From: Arachnia rubra
GTDB lineage: Bacteria; Actinomycetota; Actinomycetes; Propionibacteriales; Propionibacteriaceae
Reading direction: 5' to 3'
Length of the DNA: 64,000 bases
Assembly (NCBI RefSeq): GCF_019973735.1
Contig: NZ_AP024463.1
Location: forward strand, 1 to 64,000
A model generated the notes under the pieces. It ran no database searches. It had not been told where the DNA came from and was given only the letters and a program-made list of their open reading frames with translations. The position numbers were made by a program, and so were the translations under genes. Below are positions 48,449 through 61,392 of this stretch, piece after piece (position 1 is the stretch's first letter; each line of letters opens with the position of its first letter).

Positions 48449-50179
48449 CTAGGGGTCGACGGGAGTGGGGGTCTCGGCCTGGGGGCGGCACCAGGCGATC
48501 ACGTCCCGGCTGCGTAGGAAGACGATCAGCAGGATCGAAAGTATCAGCAGGGCGAGCAGCGGCATGATCATCAGGAACGTGTCGGTGAACTCTGTATCCA
48601 TGGAGAAATCCCATTCTGCAATCAGGTATGAATACATGAAGACGATGAACCCGATCTCCAGCGCCGCGAGCACTGACTGCGCGGCTCCTGCTACCAGCAG
48701 GACGGTGCGATTCTTCTTCTTGAGAAACCGGATGCTGTAGACCAGCATGGCCACTGCGATTCCGCACGTGAGGATCTTCTCCGTATAGCTCAGGCCGTGG
48801 AGCCAGGCAATGAGGGTTGAATAGTCTTTGCCGGGTATCCTGTTCCCCGAGGAGTCGAATGTGTAGTCCAACGTGAGGCTATCGAACCTTTCGATGAACC
48901 AGGCGATCGAGATATTCGGGACGAGAATCCGGATAATGGCCAGGATGCCGATGGTGATTCCCAGGGTGGCTGCGGTGGTCACCTTGGCGGGAGCTGGGTC
49001 GGGGCGTGACGGCTGGTCGTTGATGGCTCTCTGGGGGGTGGTGTCCTCTGATGTCTGAGAGGTGGTGTGCTCTAGGGCCGTGTGCTGGGGTGCCGTCTTC
49101 TTCCTGAGTAGGAGGAGGATCAAGACCGGCAGTGCCAGGCCAACGAATTGCATGAAGGGGAAGGGGAAAGCGTACAAGAGGGAAGCGTACGAGGGAGAAT
49201 AGATGATAAGAAGGAGAACAGATTCCAGTATTACTACTGGAGCCTGAATGAAACTGGCAACCAGTAGGGCGGTGCGCTTTCCGCTCTTACGAAGCCGGAG
49301 GCCCCCACGCAGCATGATCACTGCGATTCCGAGAGTGCAAATCGTATCGATACCGAGCACCAGAAGATGAGGTCTACCATATTCCCTGAAGCCGGCATCA
49401 ACAAAGGAGCTTATGGCCATGCTAAGCATGACTGTACCCCGGATAATGCCCAGGAAGCCGGTGGTGATTCCCAGGGCGGCTGCGGCGGTCACCCGGGTGG
49501 GGGCCAGCTCAGGGCGTGGTGGCTGGTCGCCGACAGCCCCCTGAGGGGTGGCGTCAGCTGCGGTCGTGTGCTGCGGTGCCCGGTTCTTCCTGAGCAGGAA
49601 GATGACGATGAGGGTCGGCAATACTAGACCAATGGATTGCATCAAGGGGAAGGGTAAAGCGTACAAGGAAGCGGGCCCCATAGCCAAGGGCATTAAGAAG
49701 GCAGACTCCAATGACACCATTGCAATTTGAATAAACCCAGCAACCAGTAGAGAGTCGCGCCTTCCGCCTTTGCGAAGCTGGAGGCCGCCACGCAGCATGG
49801 TCACTGCGATCCAGAGAGGGCAGCCTACCTCGATGCAAGCCAGTAAATAAATGTGAATAAATGACTGCCAGTTATCAGCAGACCTGAAGAAGGGAACGAT
49901 GAAAATAAGCGTGGCGGCGACCCGGAGAATGCCCAGGATGCCGTTGACGGTAGCGAGGGTGGCCGCGGCAGTAACCTTGGTGGGGACTTGCGGGGGTGGC
50001 GCTGTGGGCAGGGGGTGTTCTTGGTGGGCTGCTGCGTGGTGGGACGCCCCAGGTTGCCCGGCGTCGGTGGATGCCTGGTCGTCGCTGGCGCGCTTGGGCT
50101 CGTCCTGGGAAGGTGTCAGTGGCTCTGGGGTGTAGTATGTTTCTTCATGAGGTGTGGGGCTGGATTGCTGGTCGCTCAT
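48449..50179 (-). CDS. Membrane protein with three tandem internal repeats
   Basis: 576 residues from ATG 50179 (MSDQQSSPTPHEETYY). After a Pro-rich, hydrophilic N terminus come three copies of a unit of about 160 residues. Each opens with a KVTAAATLG-like or RVTAAAALG-like segment and has four hydrophobic helices with a central LGIAV-MLRGGL-RLRK and a closing run such as LPVLILLLLRKK. Linkers between units are Pro/Thr-rich with QHTT and DQPPRP. Each unit resembles one small four-helix membrane protein, so the gene arose by internal triplication. The family is unknown to me. A partial second copy of the gene lies further right. Confidence 0.8.
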   Translation of the reverse strand: MSDQQSSPTPHEETYYTPEPLTPSQDEPKRASDDQASTDAGQPGASHHAAAHQEHPLPTAPPPQVPTKVTAAATLATVNGILGILRVAATLIFIVPFFRSADNWQSFIHIYLLACIEVGCPLWIAVTMLRGGLQLRKGGRRDSLLVAGFIQIAMVSLESAFLMPLAMGPASLYALPFPLMQSIGLVLPTLIVIFLLRKNRAPQHTTAADATPQGAVGDQPPRPELAPTRVTAAAALGITTGFLGIIRGTVMLSMAISSFVDAGFREYGRPHLLVLGIDTICTLGIAVIMLRGGLRLRKSGKRTALLVASFIQAPVVILESVLLLIIYSPSYASLLYAFPFPFMQFVGLALPVLILLLLRKKTAPQHTALEHTTSQTSEDTTPQRAINDQPSRPDPAPAKVTTAATLGITIGILAIIRILVPNISIAWFIERFDSLTLDYTFDSSGNRIPGKDYSTLIAWLHGLSYTEKILTCGIAVAMLVYSIRFLKKKNRTVLLVAGAAQSVLAALEIGFIVFMYSYLIAEWDFSMDTEFTDTFLMIMPLLALLILSILLIVFLRSRDVIAWCRPQAETPTPVDP

Positions 50180-50436
50180 ATGGGTGTCTCTTCTCTGAGT
50201 TGGTGAAAACAGCACCCTAACCCGGCTCCTGGCAGTTGGGGAACACGTATCTGAGCGTGTTGGGGTTCAAAGTGACCAGATGATGGGAGCGCTTACAGCA
50301 TCCATCTAAAAATCCTGGTGCATCACGTCACCCGTGCGCCCCTGACCTTCCCGCGTTCCGCCACTCAGACGGATTTGGCCTCGCAGCTGCAGGTCAGAGC
50401 GGGATCGCGTGACTGAGCGTCGCATGCTGGAGTCGG

Positions 50437-50518: not shown

Positions 50519-50990
50519 TCAGTGCTGGGTGCGGCACCAGGTGGTCACGTCCCGGCTGCGGAGGAAGACGATGATCACAATCGGCAGTATCGCCATGACG
50601 AGCAGCACCATGATCATCACAAACATCTCGATGAATGGCACATCCATATAGGAACCTAGTTCTATAGTCAAGTAGGAATGTACGATAAGAAAGAAGACAA
50701 TCTCCAGCGCCATGATCAGTGACTGTGCGGCTCCCGCTATCACCAGGGCGGTGCGCTTCTTGCTTTTGATGAGCCGGGTGCTGTAGATCAGCATGATCAC
50801 TGCGATTCCGCACGTGAGAATCTTATCCCCGTAGTTCACGCCGTGGAGCCAAGCGATAAGAGCTGAAAACTCTTTGCCGGATATAAGATCTCCGGCGGAG
50901 TTAAACTTGTAGTGCGGGAAGGGGGTTCCATCGAGCACGCTGAGGAACCGGATGAATAAGATATTTGGGACGATGGCCCGGAATATACCC
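50519..50990 (-). pseudogene. 3' fragment of the duplicated repeat membrane protein
   Basis: The minus-strand frame ending at 50519 (LRSRDVTTWCRTQH) matches the third unit of the 576-residue protein: ALIAWLHGVNYGDKILTCGI, RTALVIAGAAQS and IVIIVFLRSRD. The match begins at FRAIVPNILFIRF, exactly where the inverted repeat of the IS starts at about 50991. The frame continues into the IS, but those residues are not part of the gene. The missing front half lies at 58476-58925. Confidence 0.8.
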
Positions 50991-52288
50991 CAGGGCCTCG
51001 GCAAAGTCGTGGTGTCTGGGGTGTGGCTAGGTGTGATGGGGGCGTGGAGCCTGTGGATTCTGGGATGATGAGGGTTCCTACACACCTTGTCATCACCGAG
51101 AAATCACGAGGCCCCACGCGTGTGCTCATCATCCCTCACCATGCCTGTCTGCGGCCAGTCGCTGCTGGGCGTGTTCGCCACCATCGCTGACCCTCGGGGA
51201 CGTCGTGGTCGCCGCCACGACCTGGCCGGGGTTCTTGCCATCGCTACAGCGGCGGTGTGTGCCGGTGCGAGCAGCCTGGTCGCGATCGCCGAGTGGGCCG
51301 CTGATGTTGGCCGCGATCTCCTGGCCACGTCGGGGCTGCTGCGCCCGGGGCGTCGAGTACCGTCGGAATCCACGATCCGCCGAATCCTCCAAGCCCTCGA
51401 CGCCGACGAACTGTCCGCGATGGTCGGGGCGTGGCTGCTGGCCCGTGACGCCACCCGATGGAAGGGTCGCATGGTGGTGGCGGTCGACGGTAAAACCTTG
51501 CGTGGAGCGAAAACTCGTGACATGGCCGCGCCGCATCTGCTGGCCGCTGTCACCCGCGGCGGGATCGTGGCCGCACAACACCAGCTCCCCGCGAAGACCG
51601 GCGAGATCGCCGCCCTGCCGGTTCTGCTGGAATCCCTGCCACGCAGCAAGATCGTTGTCACCGCTGATGCGTTGCACACCCAGCGCTCCACTGCCTGCAC
51701 CCTTACCGGGCAGGGTCATGACTACGTGCTGACGGTGAAAGGCAACCAGCCCCGCCTACGGACCGCGCTCAAGGCCTTGCCCTGGAAGAACATCCCCGCC
51801 CACCACAGCACGACCACCGGTCATGGCCGGCGCGTGAGGCGCACGATCAAGGTCTGTCAGGTCCCTGACTGGATCGACTGGCCGGGTGCCCGTCAGGTCG
51901 CACAGTTGCGCCGTACTCGCACCATCGACGGCCGCAAGACCGTGTGGGGGTGGTTTACCTGATCACCTCCCTCGATGCCCGCCAGACCAGCCCCGCTGAC
52001 CTCGCTGACCTCATCCAGAGTCATTGGGGTATCGAGAACCGGCTGCACTGGGTCAGGGATGTGACCTTCGACGAGGACCGTCACCAGCTCCACACCGGGC
52101 ACGGCCCCGCCGTGATGGCCACGCTACGCAACACCGCGATCAGCCTCCATCGCCTGGCCGGAGCTGTCAGCATCGCCGCAGCCCTCAGACACCACTCTAG
52201 AGACCCTCTGCGACCACTCCAACTCATCACCCAACCCCGACAAATCCCCTAGCCAACACGAAGAATGAAAGACTTTGCCGAGGCCCTG
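50991..52288 (+). mobile_element. ISAs1-family insertion sequence
   Basis: About 1.3 kb bounded by perfect 18-bp inverted repeats, CAGGGCCTCGGCAAAGTC at 50991-51008 and its complement at 52271-52288. It contains one transposase gene. The flanks (ATATACCC left, GGGGCTCT right) show no target-site duplication, so the element has probably recombined or caused a deletion since insertion. Its left end cuts a membrane-protein gene and its right end cuts a dehydrogenase gene. Confidence 0.9.
51087..52252 (+). pseudogene. ISAs1-family transposase, frameshifted
   Basis: DDE transposase with VVAVDGKTLRGAK (first Asp), VVTADALHTQ (second Asp) and LIQSHWGIENRLHWVRDVTF followed by EDRHQL (catalytic Glu region), typical of ISAs1. 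The frame opened at 51087 (or ATG 51141) stops at 51962 after TVWGWFT. It resumes one frame over from about 51944 as VVYLITSL. The break lies in a run of five G at about 51947-51951. Joined, the protein is about 385 residues, a normal length. A programmed shift is possible, but the family normally has a single frame, so it is probably inactive. Confidence 0.85.
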
Positions 52289-53198
52289 GGGGCTCTGTGG
52301 TTCCGACTTGGAGCTTTATCACGGAACATCAAAGTACTTGAGAGCCGGACAGACTACTTACCCACACCACTTTGGCCACGAGTGGGTCGGCACTATTGAG
52401 AAGCCCCCGCAGGACCCCAGCGCAGGGCATCTCACGCCCGGCGCAATCGTCACGGGGAGCACCATGCTGTCATGCCAGACCTGCGTTGCCTGCCAATCTG
52501 GTCACAAGAACCTTTGCCTCCGCGTCAGAGAGGTCGGCCTGTACGACCACCCAGGCGCTGCGGCAGGGCTACTCAATATGCCGGCATCTGCGCTAATGCT
52601 TCTCGACGACGCTGCCACTTCCGAACCACATCCAGCCCAAGTTCTCATCGAACCACTAGTCACTGTTCTTGAAGGAGTCGCGAAATGGTGTCCCTCACCC
52701 GGCAACCGCATCCTGATTGTCGGCGGAGGAACTATGGGTAGCCTAGCCGCGTTGGTGCTCTCGTACTATCCAGTTGAGGTTACGGTCTTTGAACCGGTGT
52801 CCTCTTCTCATTTAATTGACCTCGGTATAAATACCGTCACCGATCCAGAGGATATCAGCAGCGAATTCTATGATGTGGTTTGGGAGTGTTCAGGGGCTCG
52901 TAGCGCAACGGAAGACATGCTATCGCATCTCAAGGTCGGTGGAATTATACTACTTATAGGAGTTCCGTCTGCAGACACGCGACTTGACATCTCCGAGCTT
53001 GCGCTTAACGGACAAGCCATCTTCGGCGTCCGACACGGAGTAGATCACTATCCTGCAGCTGCTGAGTTCCTCCATCAACATTCACAGCAGGTCAATCACC
53101 TCGTGGATCGTATCTACCCAATTTCCGAGGTCAGAGCGGCATTTGAACGGCTCGAAGAACCTCGTGAACACCCGAAGGTTGTGTTGAAGATTGCCTGA
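52289..53198 (+). pseudogene. Zinc-type MDR alcohol dehydrogenase, 5' end removed by the IS
   Basis: About 300 residues remain. The frame starts inside the IS end; gene-like residues begin at LCGSDLELYHG. Catalytic zinc ligands C (CGSD) and H-E (FGHEW) are present, as are the structural-zinc cysteines CQTCVACQSGHKNLC and the cofactor site IVGGGTMGS. About 30-35 N-terminal residues are missing compared with family members. It is the first gene of the AT-richer operon and overlaps the SDR gene by 8 bases. A frame from within the IS could still allow some expression, but the natural start is gone. Confidence 0.8.
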
Positions 53199-54006
53199 GA
53201 CAAGTACAGCCCTCGTCACAGGGGCGAGCAGCGGAATCGGAAGCGCCATTGCGCGGCGACTTACCAACGACGGCATCCGAGTGCTGATCGGCTTCCACTC
53301 TGGGAGGTTGCGCGCGGAAAGGCTCTGCAGTTCCCTGAATTCAATGGGAAAAGAGAAAGCAATTCCCGTGCATATCGACTTGAGTGATCCGCACAGTATT
53401 CCTGATCGATTCGACGAGCTCGCCAAGGATTTTGGACCAATTTACTATCTCGTTAACAATGCGGGAATAAATGATCGATCTTCAGGACTGACTCTCGACC
53501 CTATTCGCCTCGAAGAGATAATCGCAATCAACCTTTCATCGCCGTTATTGCTATCATCGGCAGCTGCATCTTATTTTGCTACGAATGATCTCCACGGCTC
53601 TATCGTCAATATCACCTCGGTGCATGATCAGATACCAATAACGGGAGGAGCGCAGTACTGCGCCTCCAAAGGAGGACTAGCCGTAGCTTCTCGCGCACTG
53701 GCCCTTGAGTTTGCTCAGTACGGCATCCGCTTAAACCTAGTAGCACCAGGTGAAACGGCGACCCCTATGAACGGAGTTCTTCATGGCTCTGACTCAGAGA
53801 TTATCAGACGTCCGGCAATCCCGATGGGACGAGCTGCTCAACCAGCTGAGATTGCCAGCGCAGTCGCGTGGCTCCTCGGCTCGGAGGCGTCATACATGAC
53901 GGGAGCAACGCTCTACATTGATGGGGGTCTCATGCTCACTGCTGCCGAAGAAAATGCTAAAGCAGCATACAATACCAGCCACATCCGTGAAAGGACACAC
54001 TCATGA
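53191..54006 (+). CDS. Short-chain dehydrogenase/reductase
   Basis: 271 residues. Cofactor motif TGASSGIG, NNAG, and the catalytic Ser-Tyr-Lys set in ITSVHDQIPITGGAQYCASKGG. C-terminal LVAPGETATPMN and MTGATLYIDGG are as in classical SDRs. TTG 53191 is the likely start, overlapping the upstream stop. It reduces or oxidises a hydroxyl group with NAD(P)H; position in the operon suggests a sugar or cyclitol substrate. It overlaps the next gene by 4 bases. DNA is clearly less GC-rich than in the flanking genes (26 of 60 bases at 53401-53460). Confidence 0.9.
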   Translation: MPETSTALVTGASSGIGSAIARRLTNDGIRVLIGFHSGRLRAERLCSSLNSMGKEKAIPVHIDLSDPHSIPDRFDELAKDFGPIYYLVNNAGINDRSSGLTLDPIRLEEIIAINLSSPLLLSSAAASYFATNDLHGSIVNITSVHDQIPITGGAQYCASKGGLAVASRALALEFAQYGIRLNLVAPGETATPMNGVLHGSDSEIIRRPAIPMGRAAQPAEIASAVAWLLGSEASYMTGATLYIDGGLMLTAAEENAKAAYNTSHIRERTHS

Positions 54007-54905
54007 AAGCAGCAATAATCAATCGTACGGGACCTGCATCAGAACTCCGGGTCAGCGATGTCCCGATACCAGAGCCAGAGTCTGGGGAGATCCGGGTGAA
54101 GGTTGCGGCGGCGGCCGTCAACCCAGTCGATATCAAGACTCGTTCTGGGTTCCTGAAAATTGACCTCAATTTTCCTGCCATTCTTGGTTGGGACGTGGCT
54201 GGGGCTGTTGATGCCATCGGCGCTGATGTCTCACGATTCCACGTAGGAGACCAAGTTATGGGCATGGTTGCACAACCAGTACGCGGCCAAGGAACGTACG
54301 CAGAATATGTGTGCGCACCCGAGGAGCTATTTGCCTCCGTGCCTACAGGCCTTGGTATCCAAGAGGCTGCAGCCGTGCCTCTGACTGTGCTCACGGCTGC
54401 TCAGATGCTGAGCAAGCTCAATTTACCTGATGACAACACGCCTGTTCTTGTTACTGGAGCGGCTGGAGCAGTCGGGCGAGTTGCCGTGCAGTGGCTTCTG
54501 CAAGCCGGGCATCGGGTGGCAGGCCTGGCTCGGCTCAGTGATACCGATGACCTTGTTGCTCTTGGCGTCGAAACTGTCTATGATTCAACGACAGAAATCC
54601 CCGTAGCAGCATTCGATGCAGTCATTGACACCGCTGGAATCCCGGAAGCCATCTCTAACGTGAGGGATGATGGCAAGTTTGTATCGATCACAGATAACAC
54701 TCAGCCTCAACCTGAACGTGGAATAATTCCGATGAAAAGCTATGTGCAAGAAAATGGACAACAGCTCGCTGAGATCGCGGATCAAGTGGCACAGGGTAAA
54801 CTTTCTGTGCCAGCGGGTCCCGTCTACCCACTCACCCAAGTTGCCAATGCCCACGCTGATTTTGAGTACGGAGGCATCCGCGGAAAGGTGCTACTGATCC
54901 CATGA
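54003..54905 (+). CDS. Quinone-oxidoreductase-like MDR protein
   Basis: 300 residues of the zinc-free MDR branch: MKAAIINRTGPASELRV, GWDVAGAVDAIGADVSRFHV and VGDQVMGM. The nucleotide site VLVTGAAGAVGRVAVQWLLQ is followed by a C-terminal FEYGGIRGKVLLIP. The zinc ligands of alcohol dehydrogenases are absent. Relatives reduce quinones or enones with NADPH. Overlaps of 4 bases on both sides make it part of the coupled operon. Its substrate is unknown. Confidence 0.9.
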   Translation: MKAAIINRTGPASELRVSDVPIPEPESGEIRVKVAAAAVNPVDIKTRSGFLKIDLNFPAILGWDVAGAVDAIGADVSRFHVGDQVMGMVAQPVRGQGTYAEYVCAPEELFASVPTGLGIQEAAAVPLTVLTAAQMLSKLNLPDDNTPVLVTGAAGAVGRVAVQWLLQAGHRVAGLARLSDTDDLVALGVETVYDSTTEIPVAAFDAVIDTAGIPEAISNVRDDGKFVSITDNTQPQPERGIIPMKSYVQENGQQLAEIADQVAQGKLSVPAGPVYPLTQVANAHADFEYGGIRGKVLLIP

Positions 54906-55678
54906 CCCAACCACAACAGATTACGTTAGCCGTTCCTGACGTTGAGACAGCCGCTGCATGGCTGTCGTCTATCATCGGTAAGCCCACAGGCAGTGACTTA
55001 CTCTTCACCTTCGATCCAGGCGTGGAGCTTAAGCTCAAAGCATGCAGTCCTGAGCCTCGAAAACCGCCATCGATCACCGACCTGGGAACGCTTCACATAT
55101 GTTTTCGTGTCGATGGGATCCACGAAGTGGTAGACCGGATAAATGAGCTCCCTAGAACCAAAGCACTTGGTGACATCATTGAGATACCAAATGGGCCAAT
55201 CCAAGGGAACAAATGGATCTATTTCCAGTCGCCTTGGGGGAGTCTCTTTGAACTTCAGGAGTGGCCTGATCCTCCTGCTTACACTAGTGGGAGCAACAAA
55301 CGCCTATATCATGAGCATCCACGACAGAAGCCAGGAGCGCTTCCTGGCATCCGTGGCCTCGATCATGTGGGTTACAGTGTCGCAGATCTTGACTCAACCA
55401 TCGCGAATCTGACAAAAAAGGCCGGTGCCCAGTATGTACTTGGTACCGAGCTGACAGTTGATGAAATATTCACTCGTCGTCAGTTTGGTATCGATGTGGC
55501 CTGCACATCAACCATGGCCATGGTTGTTGCGAATGGCCTCAATATTGAATTATTCAAGCATGGGGTTTTTAAGCAGGAATTACCCCGCAGCATCGATGAA
55601 TTAGGTGGACACTCGCTGGCGCTCTCCGGTATTCAGTGGGCATCTGATATCTCAGACATAAAGGAGTCCCATCACTGA
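54902..55678 (+). CDS. Two-domain vicinal-oxygen-chelate (VOC) protein
   Basis: 258 residues with two glyoxalase-like domains. Domain 1 (about 5-125): ITLAVPDVETAAAWL to WGSLFELQEWP. Domain 2 (about 150-245): IRGLDHVGYSVADLDSTIAN to NGLNIELFKHG. Metal ligands are plausible in both (His in GLDHVGYS, Glu in NIELF, Glu in FELQEW). VOC enzymes include glyoxalases, epimerases and dioxygenases; in C7-cyclitol clusters a VOC enzyme epimerises 2-epi-5-epi-valiolone. That role is suggested only by the neighbours. It overlaps the genes on both sides. Confidence 0.8.
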   Translation: MTQPQQITLAVPDVETAAAWLSSIIGKPTGSDLLFTFDPGVELKLKACSPEPRKPPSITDLGTLHICFRVDGIHEVVDRINELPRTKALGDIIEIPNGPIQGNKWIYFQSPWGSLFELQEWPDPPAYTSGSNKRLYHEHPRQKPGALPGIRGLDHVGYSVADLDSTIANLTKKAGAQYVLGTELTVDEIFTRRQFGIDVACTSTMAMVVANGLNIELFKHGVFKQELPRSIDELGGHSLALSGIQWASDISDIKESHH

Positions 55679-56331
55679 TGGTAACTCTAGAGTGCTCTGC
55701 GCTGCTATTCGACTTGGACGATACGTTGGTCCTCTCGACGCCATCAATTGAGGCATCGTGGCATGAGTTTACAGACCGGTATGGTATCGATTTTGACAAG
55801 GTCCGTAAGCTATTGCCTGGGCGACGTGGACGTGACATTTTATCCACTATCATGCCTGAGCTGACTGCGGAGCAAGTGGCCGATGAGCTCAAAACTATCC
55901 GCTGCAATGAGATCGCTGCGGCAACGACCATAATGCCAGTACCCGGAGCAGCGACCTTGATTCATTCACTTCCAAGGCATCGCTGGGCCGTCGTGACTGC
56001 AGCGCCAAGGAAAGTAATGGAATCCCGCCTCTATGGAGCGGGCCTGCCTATTCCTGCGGTCGCGGTCTGTGCGGAGAACGTCCGAGAGGGGAAGCCATCG
56101 CCAGAAGGATTCCTCGTAGCTGCGCAAGAATTGGCGGCCGACCCGGCCCACTGTTTGGCATTCGAAGATTCGGCGGTCGGCTTCAGAGCACTCAAGGAGG
56201 CGAAAATTATGACAGTCGCAATCGGGAAAAGTCCACATGTGCATGGCTGCGATATCATTGCCTCCATCCCTGATTATGAGGGGATTATGATCAAGGAAAT
56301 GGACAGTTGCATACGGATCGTAGTTCCATGA
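55678..56331 (+). CDS. HAD-superfamily sugar phosphatase
   Basis: 217 residues. Motif I FDLDDTL with nucleophile D12 and acid D14, motif II VVTAAP, motif III GKPSPEGF, motif IV FEDSAVG. The cap is the small helical type between motifs I and II (residues about 20-90). Enzymes of this subgroup remove phosphate from sugar and polyol phosphates. It shares one base with the VOC gene stop (TGATG) and overlaps the kinase gene by 4 bases, so it is a step in the same pathway. It would dephosphorylate a late intermediate. Confidence 0.9.
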   Translation: MVTLECSALLFDLDDTLVLSTPSIEASWHEFTDRYGIDFDKVRKLLPGRRGRDILSTIMPELTAEQVADELKTIRCNEIAAATTIMPVPGAATLIHSLPRHRWAVVTAAPRKVMESRLYGAGLPIPAVAVCAENVREGKPSPEGFLVAAQELAADPAHCLAFEDSAVGFRALKEAKIMTVAIGKSPHVHGCDIIASIPDYEGIMIKEMDSCIRIVVP

Positions 56332-57272
56332 ATGCCTTCCTTGTTGACATCGGAGGCACTTGGACGCGGTTCAGATATGGTGGCCAGGTTGAGCGTATCT
56401 CAACACCCAGCAGGTTGCATCATCCGCTGAAGTCTAGCGATGCTCTTATCCAGGAGCTGGTTTACCTCGTCGCAGAGCGAGCTCCAGCGTGCGTGGATGC
56501 ATATATTTCTCTCGGCGCAGCCTACGATCCTGAAGTAGATATTGCCTATGGTTCAGGGCCTCTCTGGGGAGCGGGACGCTATGAGGTTCCCTTTCGCAGA
56601 CTTCTCGAAAAGCGGCGGCCTGATGTGCACTGGTCGGTATCTAATGACATAACAGCTGGTCTTGCACATTTCGCTAAGCAGTACGCTCGATCCGAAGATC
56701 GATATGTGATGTACATTACAATCAGTAGTGGTATTGCACTTCGAACTGCGCACCTCCCTACGGGGCAGATTGATGTCGATTCGGAGGGCCTTCAAGGAGA
56801 AGTCGGACATTTGCCAGCTACCTCAAGTGCAGCTGACGCAGTGCGTGGTCTAGCGTGTGAATGCGGTGGAGTGGGGCACATCGCCTCGATCTCTGCGGGT
56901 CCTGCCATACCGTATGTCGCCGAACGGCTCGGCATTACAAGGAACAGCCAGGAGATATACTTGGATGATGGGTCGCCTTCTAGGACGTGTGAAAGCTTGC
57001 TCCGAGTCATAATTGAGCCGATTGCGAACCTCATCCGTACGGTACGCGTCCTCCAACCGCACGTCGATCTGATCGGCATCGGTGGTGGCGTTCCCTCTGG
57101 AATTGGAACTCCATACAAGCGCGAGCTTAATCGTCAGCTATCTGCTGTCCAGTCGTATTCGGACGGTCACTTCAAGGAACACCCAAGATTACATGTGGTT
57201 TCTTTTGACCAAGTCTGCCCCGAGATCGGTGCCGAGCTTATGGCGCAGGGATATCTCAGAAATATAAGATAG
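56328..57272 (+). CDS. ROK-family kinase
   Basis: 314 residues from ATG 56328 (MNAFLVDIGGTWTRF). The phosphate-binding start DIGGTWTR, SNDITAGLAHF (catalytic Asp), GEVGH, the cysteine region CECGGVGHIASI and GIGGGV near the C terminus follow the ROK fold. The usual motif has two further residues (Cys and Glu after GxxG) that are not seen, so the zinc site is incomplete. YGSGPLWG is unusual among glucokinases and recalls the cyclitol kinases AcbM/ValC, by memory only. It would phosphorylate a sugar or cyclitol. Its start overlaps the HAD stop. Confidence 0.85.
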   Translation: MNAFLVDIGGTWTRFRYGGQVERISTPSRLHHPLKSSDALIQELVYLVAERAPACVDAYISLGAAYDPEVDIAYGSGPLWGAGRYEVPFRRLLEKRRPDVHWSVSNDITAGLAHFAKQYARSEDRYVMYITISSGIALRTAHLPTGQIDVDSEGLQGEVGHLPATSSAADAVRGLACECGGVGHIASISAGPAIPYVAERLGITRNSQEIYLDDGSPSRTCESLLRVIIEPIANLIRTVRVLQPHVDLIGIGGGVPSGIGTPYKRELNRQLSAVQSYSDGHFKEHPRLHVVSFDQVCPEIGAELMAQGYLRNIR

Positions 57273-57289
57273 AAAAAGAGGATGATTAT

Positions 57290-58381
57290 ATGGATAAGCA
57301 TAAAGCTGTTGTTCGACGTGGAGATCGTTGTGCAATTGACTATCTGAACAAGGACGAGGCGGAGGCTGGAGAACTTATTGTAGCTCCGGAGAAAGTTAGC
57401 ATATGCGGTACAGATATGCAGATTCTTCGAAAGTTACGAGATGACCCAGCTTTGGTTGTTGGTCACGAGGGGCTTGCAAAGATTGTTGAAGTTGGGGAGG
57501 GAGTTTCCGGATTTGAGGTTGGCGACCGTGTTACCGTAAATCCCACCCACCCTTCTGATCCGAGTTTTCTTCTGGGACACAATCTAAATGGTCTTTTACA
57601 GCAGCGTGTTCGCATACCTGAAACAGCGGTTTCTGGCGGGTTGGTGTCGCGCATATCATCTTGTATTCCTTCAGCTCGAGGAACGCTTATCGAGCCCTTG
57701 GCTGTGGTTATCTATGCCCTGGAATGCCTCCGTTTCGAGACCCCCGATGCCCTCCTCATCCTTGGCGATGGCCTGATAGGCAATTTGGCGGCGGTCGTCG
57801 CGCCTCAAATACTTGGAGAACAGATTTCTCTTGGTATGGTGCATAGGTCTGAACTGGGAGTTAGATGGACACGGGCCTTTGAGCCGCGTGTTGTCAACGG
57901 CCGCACTGTCGCGGATCTTGAATCTGCCTTAGACGGCCGTATTTCTATGCTGTCTGCTACGCATCGAGCCGGAACGGCGCCAGGCTTGACTGAAGTAGCG
58001 CAAACTTTCGGCGCGCGCCTTACTGCCGTGCATCTCGTGGGAGGACTTTCCCCTCATACTGTAAGTCCAGAGTTTCCTGGTGTTGATCTGTATGGTGTCC
58101 GCGTCGCAAATACAGGTGGCTTATGGCCTCCGTGCCGTGTGACTTTTAGCGATTCTGAGCGATCGATGGTCGTTACTGGAAATCGTGGTGTTTCGAATAC
58201 CAGGCTAGAAGCCGCATCGAAATTACTTGAGGAGCCGGATTTTGGGGGTAAGGTGGACTGTCTTATCACCCATGACCTCCCTTTCGAGAAGGGTGTTGAA
58301 ACTCTTAATGTAATGCTATCGACGGGAACCAGGGTGGTGAATGGTGAGCTAGTAGTTCGCTTGGTGCTCGATATGCTCTGA
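57290..58381 (+). CDS. Zinc-binding MDR dehydrogenase of sugar/cyclitol type
   Basis: 363 residues. Zinc ligands in CGTDMQI and VGHEGLAKI are present. The structural-zinc cysteines of alcohol dehydrogenases are replaced by NPTHPSDPSFLLGHNLNGLL, and the cofactor region is LILGDGLIGNLAAVVA. The C-terminal domain is larger than in simple MDR enzymes, with VHLVGGLSPHTVSPEFPG. GAGGA lies 8 bases before the ATG; the gap to the kinase gene is 17 bases. Gene family and place suggest oxidation or reduction of a polyol or cyclitol phosphate, like AcbL/ValN. Substrate not shown. Confidence 0.85.
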   Translation: MDKHKAVVRRGDRCAIDYLNKDEAEAGELIVAPEKVSICGTDMQILRKLRDDPALVVGHEGLAKIVEVGEGVSGFEVGDRVTVNPTHPSDPSFLLGHNLNGLLQQRVRIPETAVSGGLVSRISSCIPSARGTLIEPLAVVIYALECLRFETPDALLILGDGLIGNLAAVVAPQILGEQISLGMVHRSELGVRWTRAFEPRVVNGRTVADLESALDGRISMLSATHRAGTAPGLTEVAQTFGARLTAVHLVGGLSPHTVSPEFPGVDLYGVRVANTGGLWPPCRVTFSDSERSMVVTGNRGVSNTRLEAASKLLEEPDFGGKVDCLITHDLPFEKGVETLNVMLSTGTRVVNGELVVRLVLDML

Positions 58382-58925: not shown

Positions 58926-59244
58926 GTGCCGGTCGTATACTGCCGTTTTTCTCGTCGTGAGGACGTCGAGGAGCACGAGGCTCAGGACCAGGATGATAAT
59001 CAGGATGGTGACGCTGGTTTTTGCTCGGTCATTGCTTGATATGTGTCTGCATACTGCGAGAGCTTTTCCATTATTTAGGCCACCCCGTCGGGTTATCGTT
59101 TGAGAAGGCGCGGATGCTACGTCCGCCTTTCCCGTATCGAGGCAGCGGACCTGAATCAGGACGGCGGGGCGGACGGTCCTCTCGGGGTCAGGTCGGGGGT
59201 ACCCCTGCTTGACAGTGTCTGGTGTTTGGGGTTGGGTGTTCCCC

Positions 59245-60237
59245 ATGGATAGTGAAGGTGGGAAGAAACCTCGTTCCAGGCGCTGGCTGCGGCGGCTTGG
59301 TATGGCGGCCGTGGTGCTGGGTGGGGTGAAGGTTGCGGATGTGGTGCTCACGGCGCGGGAGCGGGCGGATCATCCGGCTCCGGGGCAGTTGGTGGATGTC
59401 GACGGCCACAAGATGCACGTCCACACCACTGGTCAGGGTGACACAAGTATTGTTCTGCTTCCAGGTCTTGCCGTCCCGGCTCCGGATTTGGATTTTGAGC
59501 TTTTGGTGAGGGAGCTGTCGGGGTGGGCGACGGTGACGGTGGTGGAGCCCTTCGGCTACGGGTGGAGTGACGTGACCGATTCTTCTATGCTTCCTCGGGA
59601 TATTGCGCGGGATGTTCATACCGCGTTGCATGCCGCTGGGGTGAAAGGCCCCTATGTGCTGATGGGGCATTCCATTAGTGGATTGACCTCCCAGGCCTTT
59701 GCTGATCAGTATCCCGACGAGGTCGCCGGCTATGTCGGTTTGGACCCGACTATTCCCCATGCGAAATTTTTCGACAGCCAGGCGGGTCCCGCGTTTCCCC
59801 GGTTTTATTTATGGGTTTTCAGGCCTATGGTGCAGGCTGGGTGGATGCGTATTATTACGGCTTTCAGTGGTGCTGATCCCTCGTTTATGTTCGGGGCCAG
59901 CTCTGCGGATGGTTATAGCAAAGAGAATCTTGAACAGCAGCGGATGCTGACCAACTGGATGATGCTGAGCGCGAATGTCGACCGGCAGGCGACCGTTCTT
60001 GGTGAAGCTATCGCGCAGACCCGGGATCTCCGGTTTGATGAGAAGCTGCCGGTGTTGGTCTACACCGCTGCGCAGACACGCGATGCCGCATATACGGATG
60101 CGGAGATTGCGGAGTATGTGGGCAGTGGTCCTTGTCGGCGGTCGGTGATCGTCGATGCCAGCCACTTCGTCCATCACACCGAGTACAAACGCATTAGCGA
60201 AGGCACCCGCGCCCTCATGACCGAATGCCACCGATAA
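59245..60237 (+). CDS. Membrane-anchored alpha/beta hydrolase (copy 1)
   Basis: 330 residues. A basic N terminus (MDSEGGKKPRSRRWLRR), a membrane segment, then an alpha/beta-hydrolase domain. Oxyanion/lid part VLLPGLAVPAPDLDFELL, nucleophile elbow MGHSISG, DQYPDEVAGYVGLDP, catalytic His in DASHFVHH. It would hydrolyse a small ester or similar bond at the membrane face. Tandem paralogue of the next gene, about 165 bases apart, with nearly the same C terminus. ATG 59245 is chosen because it fits the paralogue. Confidence 0.85.
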   Translation: MDSEGGKKPRSRRWLRRLGMAAVVLGGVKVADVVLTARERADHPAPGQLVDVDGHKMHVHTTGQGDTSIVLLPGLAVPAPDLDFELLVRELSGWATVTVVEPFGYGWSDVTDSSMLPRDIARDVHTALHAAGVKGPYVLMGHSISGLTSQAFADQYPDEVAGYVGLDPTIPHAKFFDSQAGPAFPRFYLWVFRPMVQAGWMRIITAFSGADPSFMFGASSADGYSKENLEQQRMLTNWMMLSANVDRQATVLGEAIAQTRDLRFDEKLPVLVYTAAQTRDAAYTDAEIAEYVGSGPCRRSVIVDASHFVHHTEYKRISEGTRALMTECHR

Positions 60238-60402
60238 CCGGCGTGCTGGCCGCTTCCGTCTTTGACTGGGGCTTGACGGGTTTGCCCGCCAGGCCCGGCG
60301 CCGCGAGGGGACGTGAGGTGAAGGGGATTGAGGGGCTGGCCCTGGTTGGTTCAGGGGTTGACCCTGATGACGCCGCGCGACCTGTGGGATTGACTGTTCA
60401 CC

Positions 60403-61392
60403 ATGGAAGTTGAAGGTGAAAAGAAACCTCGTCGTAGGCGCTGGCTGCGGCGGCTTGGGGTCGTGGTGTTGGTGCTGGTGGTACTGCTGGCCGGTATCAA
60501 GGTCACCGACATGGCGATGACCGCGTACGAACGCGCGAGCCATCCGGCTCCGGGGCAGTTGGTGGATGTCGACGGCCACAAGATGCACGTCCACACGGTG
60601 GGGGGGGGTGATACGAGTATTGTTCTGCTTCCGGGTCTTGGTGTCCCGGCTCCGGATTTGGATTTTGAGCCCTTGGTGAAGGAGCTCTCGAAGTGGGCGA
60701 CGGTGACGGTGGTGGAGCCCTTCGGCTACGGCTGGAGCGATGTCACGGACTCTCCCATGTTGCCATCGGATATCGCGCGGGATGTTCACACCGCGTTGCA
60801 TGCCGCAGGGGTGAAAGGCCCCTATGTTCTGATGGGGCACTCCATCAGCGGATTGAACTCTCAGGCCTTTGCTGATCAGTATCCCGACGAGGTCGCGGGT
60901 TATGTCGGCCTAGATCCCTCCCTCTCTAATGCGAAGTTCTTCGAGAATCGCACAGAATCTGGTTCTCCCTGGTATTTAAATTTGGCAGTTCAGGCTGGAT
61001 GGACACGGATTTTCCAGGCCTTCCGGGGTACGGATCCCTCTCTGATTGGAGGCAGCAGCGCCGACGGCTACAGCAAGGAGAACCTCGAACTACAGCGAAT
61101 GGTCATCAACTGGAGTGCCCTGAGTGCGAATATCAGGCGGCAGATGGCTGTCGATGCGGAGGCTTTCGCGCAGACCCGGAATCTTCGGTTCGATGAGAAG
61201 CTGCCGGTGTTGGTCTACACCTCTGCGCAGACACGCGATGCCGCATATACGGATGCGGAGATTGCGGAGTATGTGGGCAGTGGTTCTTGTCGGCGGTCGG
61301 TGATCGTCGATGCTAGTCACTTCGTCCATCACACTGAGTACAAGCGTATTAGCGAGGGCACCCGGGCCCTCATGGCCGAGTGCCGCCGCTAG
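60403..61392 (+). CDS. Membrane-anchored alpha/beta hydrolase (copy 2)
   Basis: 329 residues, same layout as copy 1: basic start, membrane segment (VVVLVLVVLLAGIKV), GHSISGL elbow and DASHFVHH histidine. The least similar part is 180-230. Where copy 1 has HTTGQGDT this copy has HTVGGGDT, encoded by nine G in a row (60600-60608), in frame here but prone to slippage. The substrate is unknown. The two copies probably have the same kind of reaction with different specificity. Confidence 0.85.
   Translation: MEVEGEKKPRRRRWLRRLGVVVLVLVVLLAGIKVTDMAMTAYERASHPAPGQLVDVDGHKMHVHTVGGGDTSIVLLPGLGVPAPDLDFEPLVKELSKWATVTVVEPFGYGWSDVTDSPMLPSDIARDVHTALHAAGVKGPYVLMGHSISGLNSQAFADQYPDEVAGYVGLDPSLSNAKFFENRTESGSPWYLNLAVQAGWTRIFQAFRGTDPSLIGGSSADGYSKENLELQRMVINWSALSANIRRQMAVDAEAFAQTRNLRFDEKLPVLVYTSAQTRDAAYTDAEIAEYVGSGSCRRSVIVDASHFVHHTEYKRISEGTRALMAECRR

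Follow-up and report, generated by a model that had tools for sequence, protein, structure and literature searches.

C7-cyclitols yield inhibitors of glycosidases and trehalases, among them acarbose, validamycin and salbostatin. The acarbose pathway is described in PMC9200736. The locus under study lies in Arachnia rubra (Propionibacteriales), at positions 52289-58381 of the first 64,000 nt of contig NZ_AP024463.1; this whole stretch is called the window below. It holds a seven-gene operon that a sequence-only reading had likened to the tailoring genes of such pathways, with a truncated cyclitol pathway as the first of three options. Our analysis supported that option. In two relatives, a cyclase of the 2-epi-5-epi-valiolone synthase (EEVS) type precedes the same genes, and in the window this front is replaced by an insertion sequence (IS). 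We consider, with a probability of about 0.9, that the operon is the rear remnant of a ten-gene C7-cyclitol cluster whose front was deleted at an ISAs1-family element, and that it is most likely non-producing.

Judged by the families of its predicted proteins, the ten-gene cluster is composed of genes for EEVS, a KAS III acyltransferase, an MFS exporter, a first MDR dehydrogenase (MDR1), an SDR dehydrogenase, MDR2, a VOC protein, a HAD phosphatase, a ROK kinase and MDR3, in this order. A literature search for valiolone and Nesterenkonia together gave no match, and judged by title and abstract opening, none of the papers listed by further searches of an incomplete collection describes the cluster.

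Relatives in Nesterenkonia and Propionibacterium

The seven window genes lie on one strand with ends overlapping by 8, 4, 4, 1 and 4 bases, followed by a 17-base gap. This layout, as given by the sequence-only reading, agrees with the open reading frame (ORF) coordinates, and the families it had named are backed by Pfam (Table 1). It had overlooked that gene 1 is broken: the open frame begins within the end of the IS, and MDR1 is without about 35 N-terminal residues, its GLCGSD corresponding to a start at residue 36 of the Nesterenkonia orthologue. Genes 2-7 align with their Nesterenkonia counterparts over nearly the whole length.

Among 5.8 billion proteins, a word-based search at 0.001 returned 10 matches to the VOC protein; scanning genome contigs with two patterns yielded two loci. 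In Nesterenkonia alkaliphila F10 (Micrococcales; locus L002), all seven genes recur in unchanged order with 65-77% identity, which makes all seven tailoring genes orthologous to and collinear with an EEVS-bearing cluster. Directly ahead of the seven are genes encoding a cyclase of the DHQ-synthase family (434 residues), a KAS III protein (339 residues) and an MFS protein (404 residues). Against the PDB, the cyclase scored 395 bits with the EEVS ValA (4P53), 241 with 5TPR and 143 with the next DHQ synthase. 5TPR was deposited as a 3-dehydroquinate synthase (DHQS), and we take it to be the DDGS. At two aligned positions, which are presumably sites of the 14-residue EEVS fingerprint, the Nesterenkonia cyclase has D and H as in ValA, while 5TPR has A and T. 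With 2 of the 14 fingerprint sites compared, the cyclase resembles ValA more than DDGS or DHQS and was classed as EEVS-type. The fingerprint is mentioned in PMC4426668.

In Propionibacterium acidifaciens DSM 21887, which belongs to the same order as the window host, the related genes were found on two contigs. Contig L003 carries SDR, MDR2, VOC, HAD, ROK and MDR3 with 50-66% identity to the window, the kinase (L003:3592-4540) reading in two frames. At its left end (L003:3-437) there is first a fragment resembling a transposase (PF13613, 25 bits, cut-off 27), followed by MDR1 only from about residue 299. L003 by itself suggested that P. acidifaciens had lost its cyclase; this was ruled out when a genome search found the EEVS (63%) together with the front genes on another contig, L153 (6438 bases). 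L153 holds EEVS, KAS III, MFS and residues 1-299 of MDR1, with identities to L002 of 62%, 64%, 77% and 62%, respectively; the three front genes are stop-free, and the cyclase has D and H at the same two positions as ValA. The MDR1 part is followed by a fragment of an IS5-type transposase (42 bits, cut-off 140), the split lying within L153:5180-6437. P. acidifaciens thus seems to contain all ten genes in this arrangement, and an IS5-type element would interrupt its MDR1 at the assembly break, where L153 and L003 would adjoin. Two bacterial orders show the arrangement, and since one of them is that of the window, our confidence in a cluster remnant was raised from 0.87 to 0.90. Directly upstream of the EEVS gene, at L153:673-1407, we also found an ISAs1-family transposase (119 bits), 38-45% identical to that of the window's different ISAs1 element.

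The insertion sequence and the missing front

The first transposase frame of the IS at the left edge of the operon scored 143 bits with NCBIfam NF033564 (cut-off 70) and the second frame 65; together with the matching inverted ends, this places the element in the ISAs1 family. Three other copies of the same IS were found in the genome, two full-length and one internally deleted. All three are flanked by a perfect 10-bp duplication, whereas the window copy has differing 10-mers on either side. Beyond the IS lies the truncated gene at 50519-50989. Its product shares 54% identity with the C-terminal part of the protein encoded at 48449-50215 and 46% with the product of a gene at 2364 kb. The protein of 48449-50215 is membrane-like, with 588 residues, internal repeats and no Pfam match.

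A plain insertion of the IS into gene 1 was rejected, because no target duplication is present and another gene, likewise truncated, borders the IS on its other side. Two truncated neighbours, together with the absent duplication, fit a deletion ending at the IS, and judging by the gene order of both relatives the deleted part would have contained the cyclase, KAS III and MFS genes and the start of MDR1. An IS-marked deletion is thus the likely cause for the loss of the cluster front.

The genome of the strain (3.317 Mb, one contig) contained a single DHQ-synthase-family gene, whose product is 31% identical to the L002 cyclase. No EEVS-type cyclase was found there by the search that recovered EEVS in both relatives as a positive control, and no relatives of KAS III (at 0.001) or MFS (at 1e-20) were found in searches without a positive control. 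An EEVS-type cyclase is present in L002 and L153, and was found neither in the window's cluster nor in its genome. A relocation of the front half within the genome was rejected, as the searches at these thresholds yielded no relative of EEVS, KAS III or MFS.

The seven genes might have been kept for salvage or detoxification, where C7-cyclitols from neighbours are taken up, phosphorylated and dehydrogenated and an own cyclase is dispensable. A kinase, an epimerase and dehydrogenases are the needs of such a catabolic route, six of the genes are open and full length, and near-identical kinase variants exist on many contigs (P0131-P0144). However, the seven genes include no importer, gene 1 is broken, and the cyclase precedes the same genes in both relatives. 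A close VOC relative was also found in none of the 38 other genomes of the genus, two of which gave just weak scores (26 and 29 bits). We regard salvage as improbable, and the preferred explanation remains a cluster that lost its front.

The composition of the operon is unlike that of the flanks, as had been noticed from the sequence: its GC content is 0.53, while the DNA at 58.5-62 kb has 0.59 and that at 44-48 kb has 0.71. When 95 relatives of all ranks were searched for the VOC protein, the best score was 57 bits; the own genome gives 474. Viral contigs gave 41 pattern matches to the VOC protein and no relative among them. The plasmid search by protein returned 72 records, all below 60% identity, four of which covered 80% of the query at 27-29%; the plasmid search by DNA returned no match. 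The kinase of Corynebacterium genitalium ATCC 33030 (P0145) is 91% identical to that of Nesterenkonia, and the two hosts belong to different orders. The metagenome cyclase P0016 shares with the window lineage a similar divergence alone, and we do not claim it as a partner. About 4-7 kb past the Nesterenkonia cluster (L002:17627-20226), genes for a phage-integrase-family recombinase and a DNA methylase were located.

Table 1. Features of the operon and of its left edge in the window of Arachnia rubra
Feature	Coordinates	Strand	Details
Truncated paralogue of membrane-like protein, N-terminal part gone	50519..50989	-	frame runs into IS
ISAs1-family insertion sequence	50991..52288	+	1298 bp; ends CAGGGCC...GGCCCTG; transposase split over two frames; no target-site duplication
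Gene 1 remnant, MDR1 (zinc MDR dehydrogenase)	52289..53198	+	coding from 52290 (GLCGSD...); orthologue 337 aa, L002:7287-8300, 72% identical
Gene 2, SDR dehydrogenase	53191..54006	+	PF13561 1.3e-50; 75% to L002
Gene 3, MDR2 (zinc-free MDR)	54003..54905	+	PF08240 and PF13602; 76% to L002
Gene 4, two-module VOC protein, proposed C7-cyclitol(-phosphate) epimerase	54902..55678	+	PF13669; 77% to L002
Gene 5, HAD phosphatase	55678..56331	+	PF00702, PF13419; 65% to L002
Gene 6, ROK kinase, EEVS-associated group	56328..57272 (mechanical ORF start 56307)	+	PF00480; 70% to L002
Gene 7, MDR3 (MDR dehydrogenase), companion of ROK kinase	57290..58381	+	PF08240; 75% to L002

Downstream of the operon (59209-61392) there are two tandem paralogous genes encoding alpha/beta hydrolases (PF00561), with a GC content of about 0.59-0.60. 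No tRNA was found by a scan of the window, and no Rfam match by a scan of 48-62 kb.

Operon families around EEVS cyclases

Of 394 genomes of the class, 19 contained cyclases matching that of L002 at 1e-60 (22 places); of 392 genomes of one genus, 32 contained ValA-like cyclases at 1e-100 (34 places). From these, 40 regions of 12-20 kb were collected (20 of the 22 and 20 of the 34 places). As controls, 20 stretches were taken from 19 of the same genomes at a distance of 300 kb (700 kb for one), and a threshold of 70 bits was used for each family. According to the two positions, 31 cyclases were D/H and were counted as EEVS-type; the other nine comprised seven A/T, one D/T and one N/L.

The 31 EEVS-type neighbourhoods contained relatives of SDR (12), MDR2 (9), ROK (8), MDR3 (8), HAD (7), KAS III (6), MDR1 (6), MFS (6) and VOC (5). 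Around the nine other cyclases only SDR was found (1/9), and the control regions gave only MFS (1/20), all other operon families being zero in both. ROK was paired with MDR3 in all eight ROK-bearing EEVS neighbourhoods, and KAS III was accompanied by SDR in six of six. ROK and KAS III occurred together in none of the 40 cyclase neighbourhoods, and both belong to the cluster of the Nesterenkonia and P. acidifaciens type. The two gene sets overlap partly, as MDR1 and MDR2 are also found with ROK in L041 and L042. By its predicted gene content, the cluster in Nesterenkonia and P. acidifaciens unites both sets, and the window keeps leftovers of both.

In the neighbourhoods examined, genes for near relatives of the window kinase lie next to EEVS cyclase genes. 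Among the 120 listed of 152 ROK relatives, at least 23 are on contigs size-matched exactly to an EEVS contig, while offset sizes gave 0-2; for the VOC protein, three of ten relatives were likewise size-matched to an EEVS-bearing contig. Outside the 40-region count, a ROK search in the family of G278 found one of 341 genomes at 1e-40 (L121), again with EEVS, MDR3 and HAD beside the kinase. A single frame of 737 residues at L058:8239-10452 combines a ROK kinase with an EEVS-family cyclase and is adjoined by a phosphoglucomutase gene. The EEVS/KAS III/VOC cluster of L105 has a transaldolase gene beside KAS III (L105:16358-17392), which would fit precursor supply.

These counts also bear on an ordinary sugar-catabolic operon that reuses the same enzyme families. 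All of the families are common in sugar metabolism, the Pfam and NCBIfam names are merely general, and the PDB sequence search with the ROK kinase gave only five matches, all N-acetylmannosamine kinases. However, the orthologues run with EEVS in Nesterenkonia and, across two contigs, in P. acidifaciens, the families gather around EEVS and not in the controls, and relatives of the kinase share contigs with EEVS. From the EEVS synteny and the neighbourhood counts, this explanation was rejected as very improbable.

Proposed pathway and comparison with known systems

In the complete version, and as far as enzyme families can indicate, EEVS would convert sedoheptulose 7-phosphate to 2-epi-5-epi-valiolone, which may be phosphorylated by the ROK kinase. 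The VOC protein would then epimerise the phosphorylated cyclitol, the MDR and SDR enzymes may carry out oxidation, reduction or dehydration of the ring, and the HAD protein may take the phosphate off. The KAS III protein might acylate a hydroxyl and the MFS protein might export the product. In the window's genome, the ISAs1-marked deletion would have removed the cluster front and the start of MDR1. As the pathway is without its first step, the window operon is most likely a non-producing remnant, and the strain is probably unable to make the cluster product.

The sequence-only reading had likened the kinase to AcbM/ValC and the VOC protein to AcbO/ValD. The families are the same and kinase relatives are located beside EEVS. 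However, the validamycin-like locus L091, which served as a proxy, showed only distant relation: the window kinase is 28% identical to its ValC-like ROK protein over 190 aa, and the window VOC protein 27% identical to its ValD-like protein over 222 aa (80 bits). Judged by this proxy, the window pair does not look like AcbM/AcbO-type orthologues. The predicted model of the VOC protein (pLDDT 88) has the VOC fold, its structural matches are general VOC proteins that indicate no function, and the PDB sequence search found no relative better than E 0.5. Four VOC residues, H65, E117, H155 and E216, are invariant in 11 sequences.

Several points weigh against a non-producing C7-cyclitol remnant. One is the low identity to the L091 pair just given. 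Because six of the seven genes are still open and full length, some function may persist, and a promoter carried by the IS could drive transcription of the remaining genes. No intact front was seen in the window's own species. The two cyclase positions compared are presumably fingerprint sites and would make up 2 of the 14 described. Moreover, at 70 bits, 23 of the 31 EEVS-type neighbourhoods are without a ROK relative and 25 without a KAS III relative.

We might tentatively speculate, at somewhat worse than even odds, that the complete cluster represents a new C7-cyclitol pathway, in which an acyl-transferring set (KAS III, VOC, MDR1, SDR and MDR2) and a phosphorylating set (ROK, MDR3 and HAD) would lead to an exported acylated carbasugar; the cluster would be horizontally mobile among actinobacteria of several orders, with MDR1 transposon-broken in two propionibacterial species. 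The cluster may point to an undescribed class of products. An unbroken version exists in a culturable Nesterenkonia and a broken, nearly complete one in P. acidifaciens, and the window gives a clear example of a biosynthetic cluster losing its first step at an IS.

The validamycin, acarbose and salbostatin pathways share with this system the EEVS (in the relatives), a ROK kinase, a two-module VOC protein, dehydrogenases and a HAD phosphatase. In contrast, by Pfam neither the seven window genes nor the three extra genes of L002 encode a nucleotidyltransferase, aminotransferase, glycosyltransferase or pseudoglycosyltransferase, which sets the cluster apart from an acarbose or validamycin pathway proper. 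The ten-gene cluster further differs from these pathways by its KAS III gene, the kinase and VOC protein of the window are remote from the validamycin-like pair of L091, and the window has lost the cyclase.

The KAS III protein of L002 scored 126-141 bits with CerJ, ChlB3 and a daunorubicin-pathway protein (PDB 3s3l, 7eqi and 4xs7), far above the 46 bits with E. coli-type FabH; unlike those systems, the ten-gene cluster contains no polyketide synthase, and the window's genome gave no KAS III relative at 0.001.

Two groups of EEVS loci each resemble one part of the cluster. L092, L100 and L105 (EEVS, MDR1, SDR, VOC and KAS III) are without ROK, MDR3 and HAD of the window type (70 bits, 12-20 kb), but are related in MDR1 (34-39%), SDR (43-44%), VOC (31-35%) and KAS III (37-39%). 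L106, L108, L109, L110, L041 and L042 (EEVS, ROK, MDR3 and HAD) are without KAS III and VOC of the cluster type (70 bits, 20 kb), but have the same phosphorylation set, with ROK kinases 32-48% identical.

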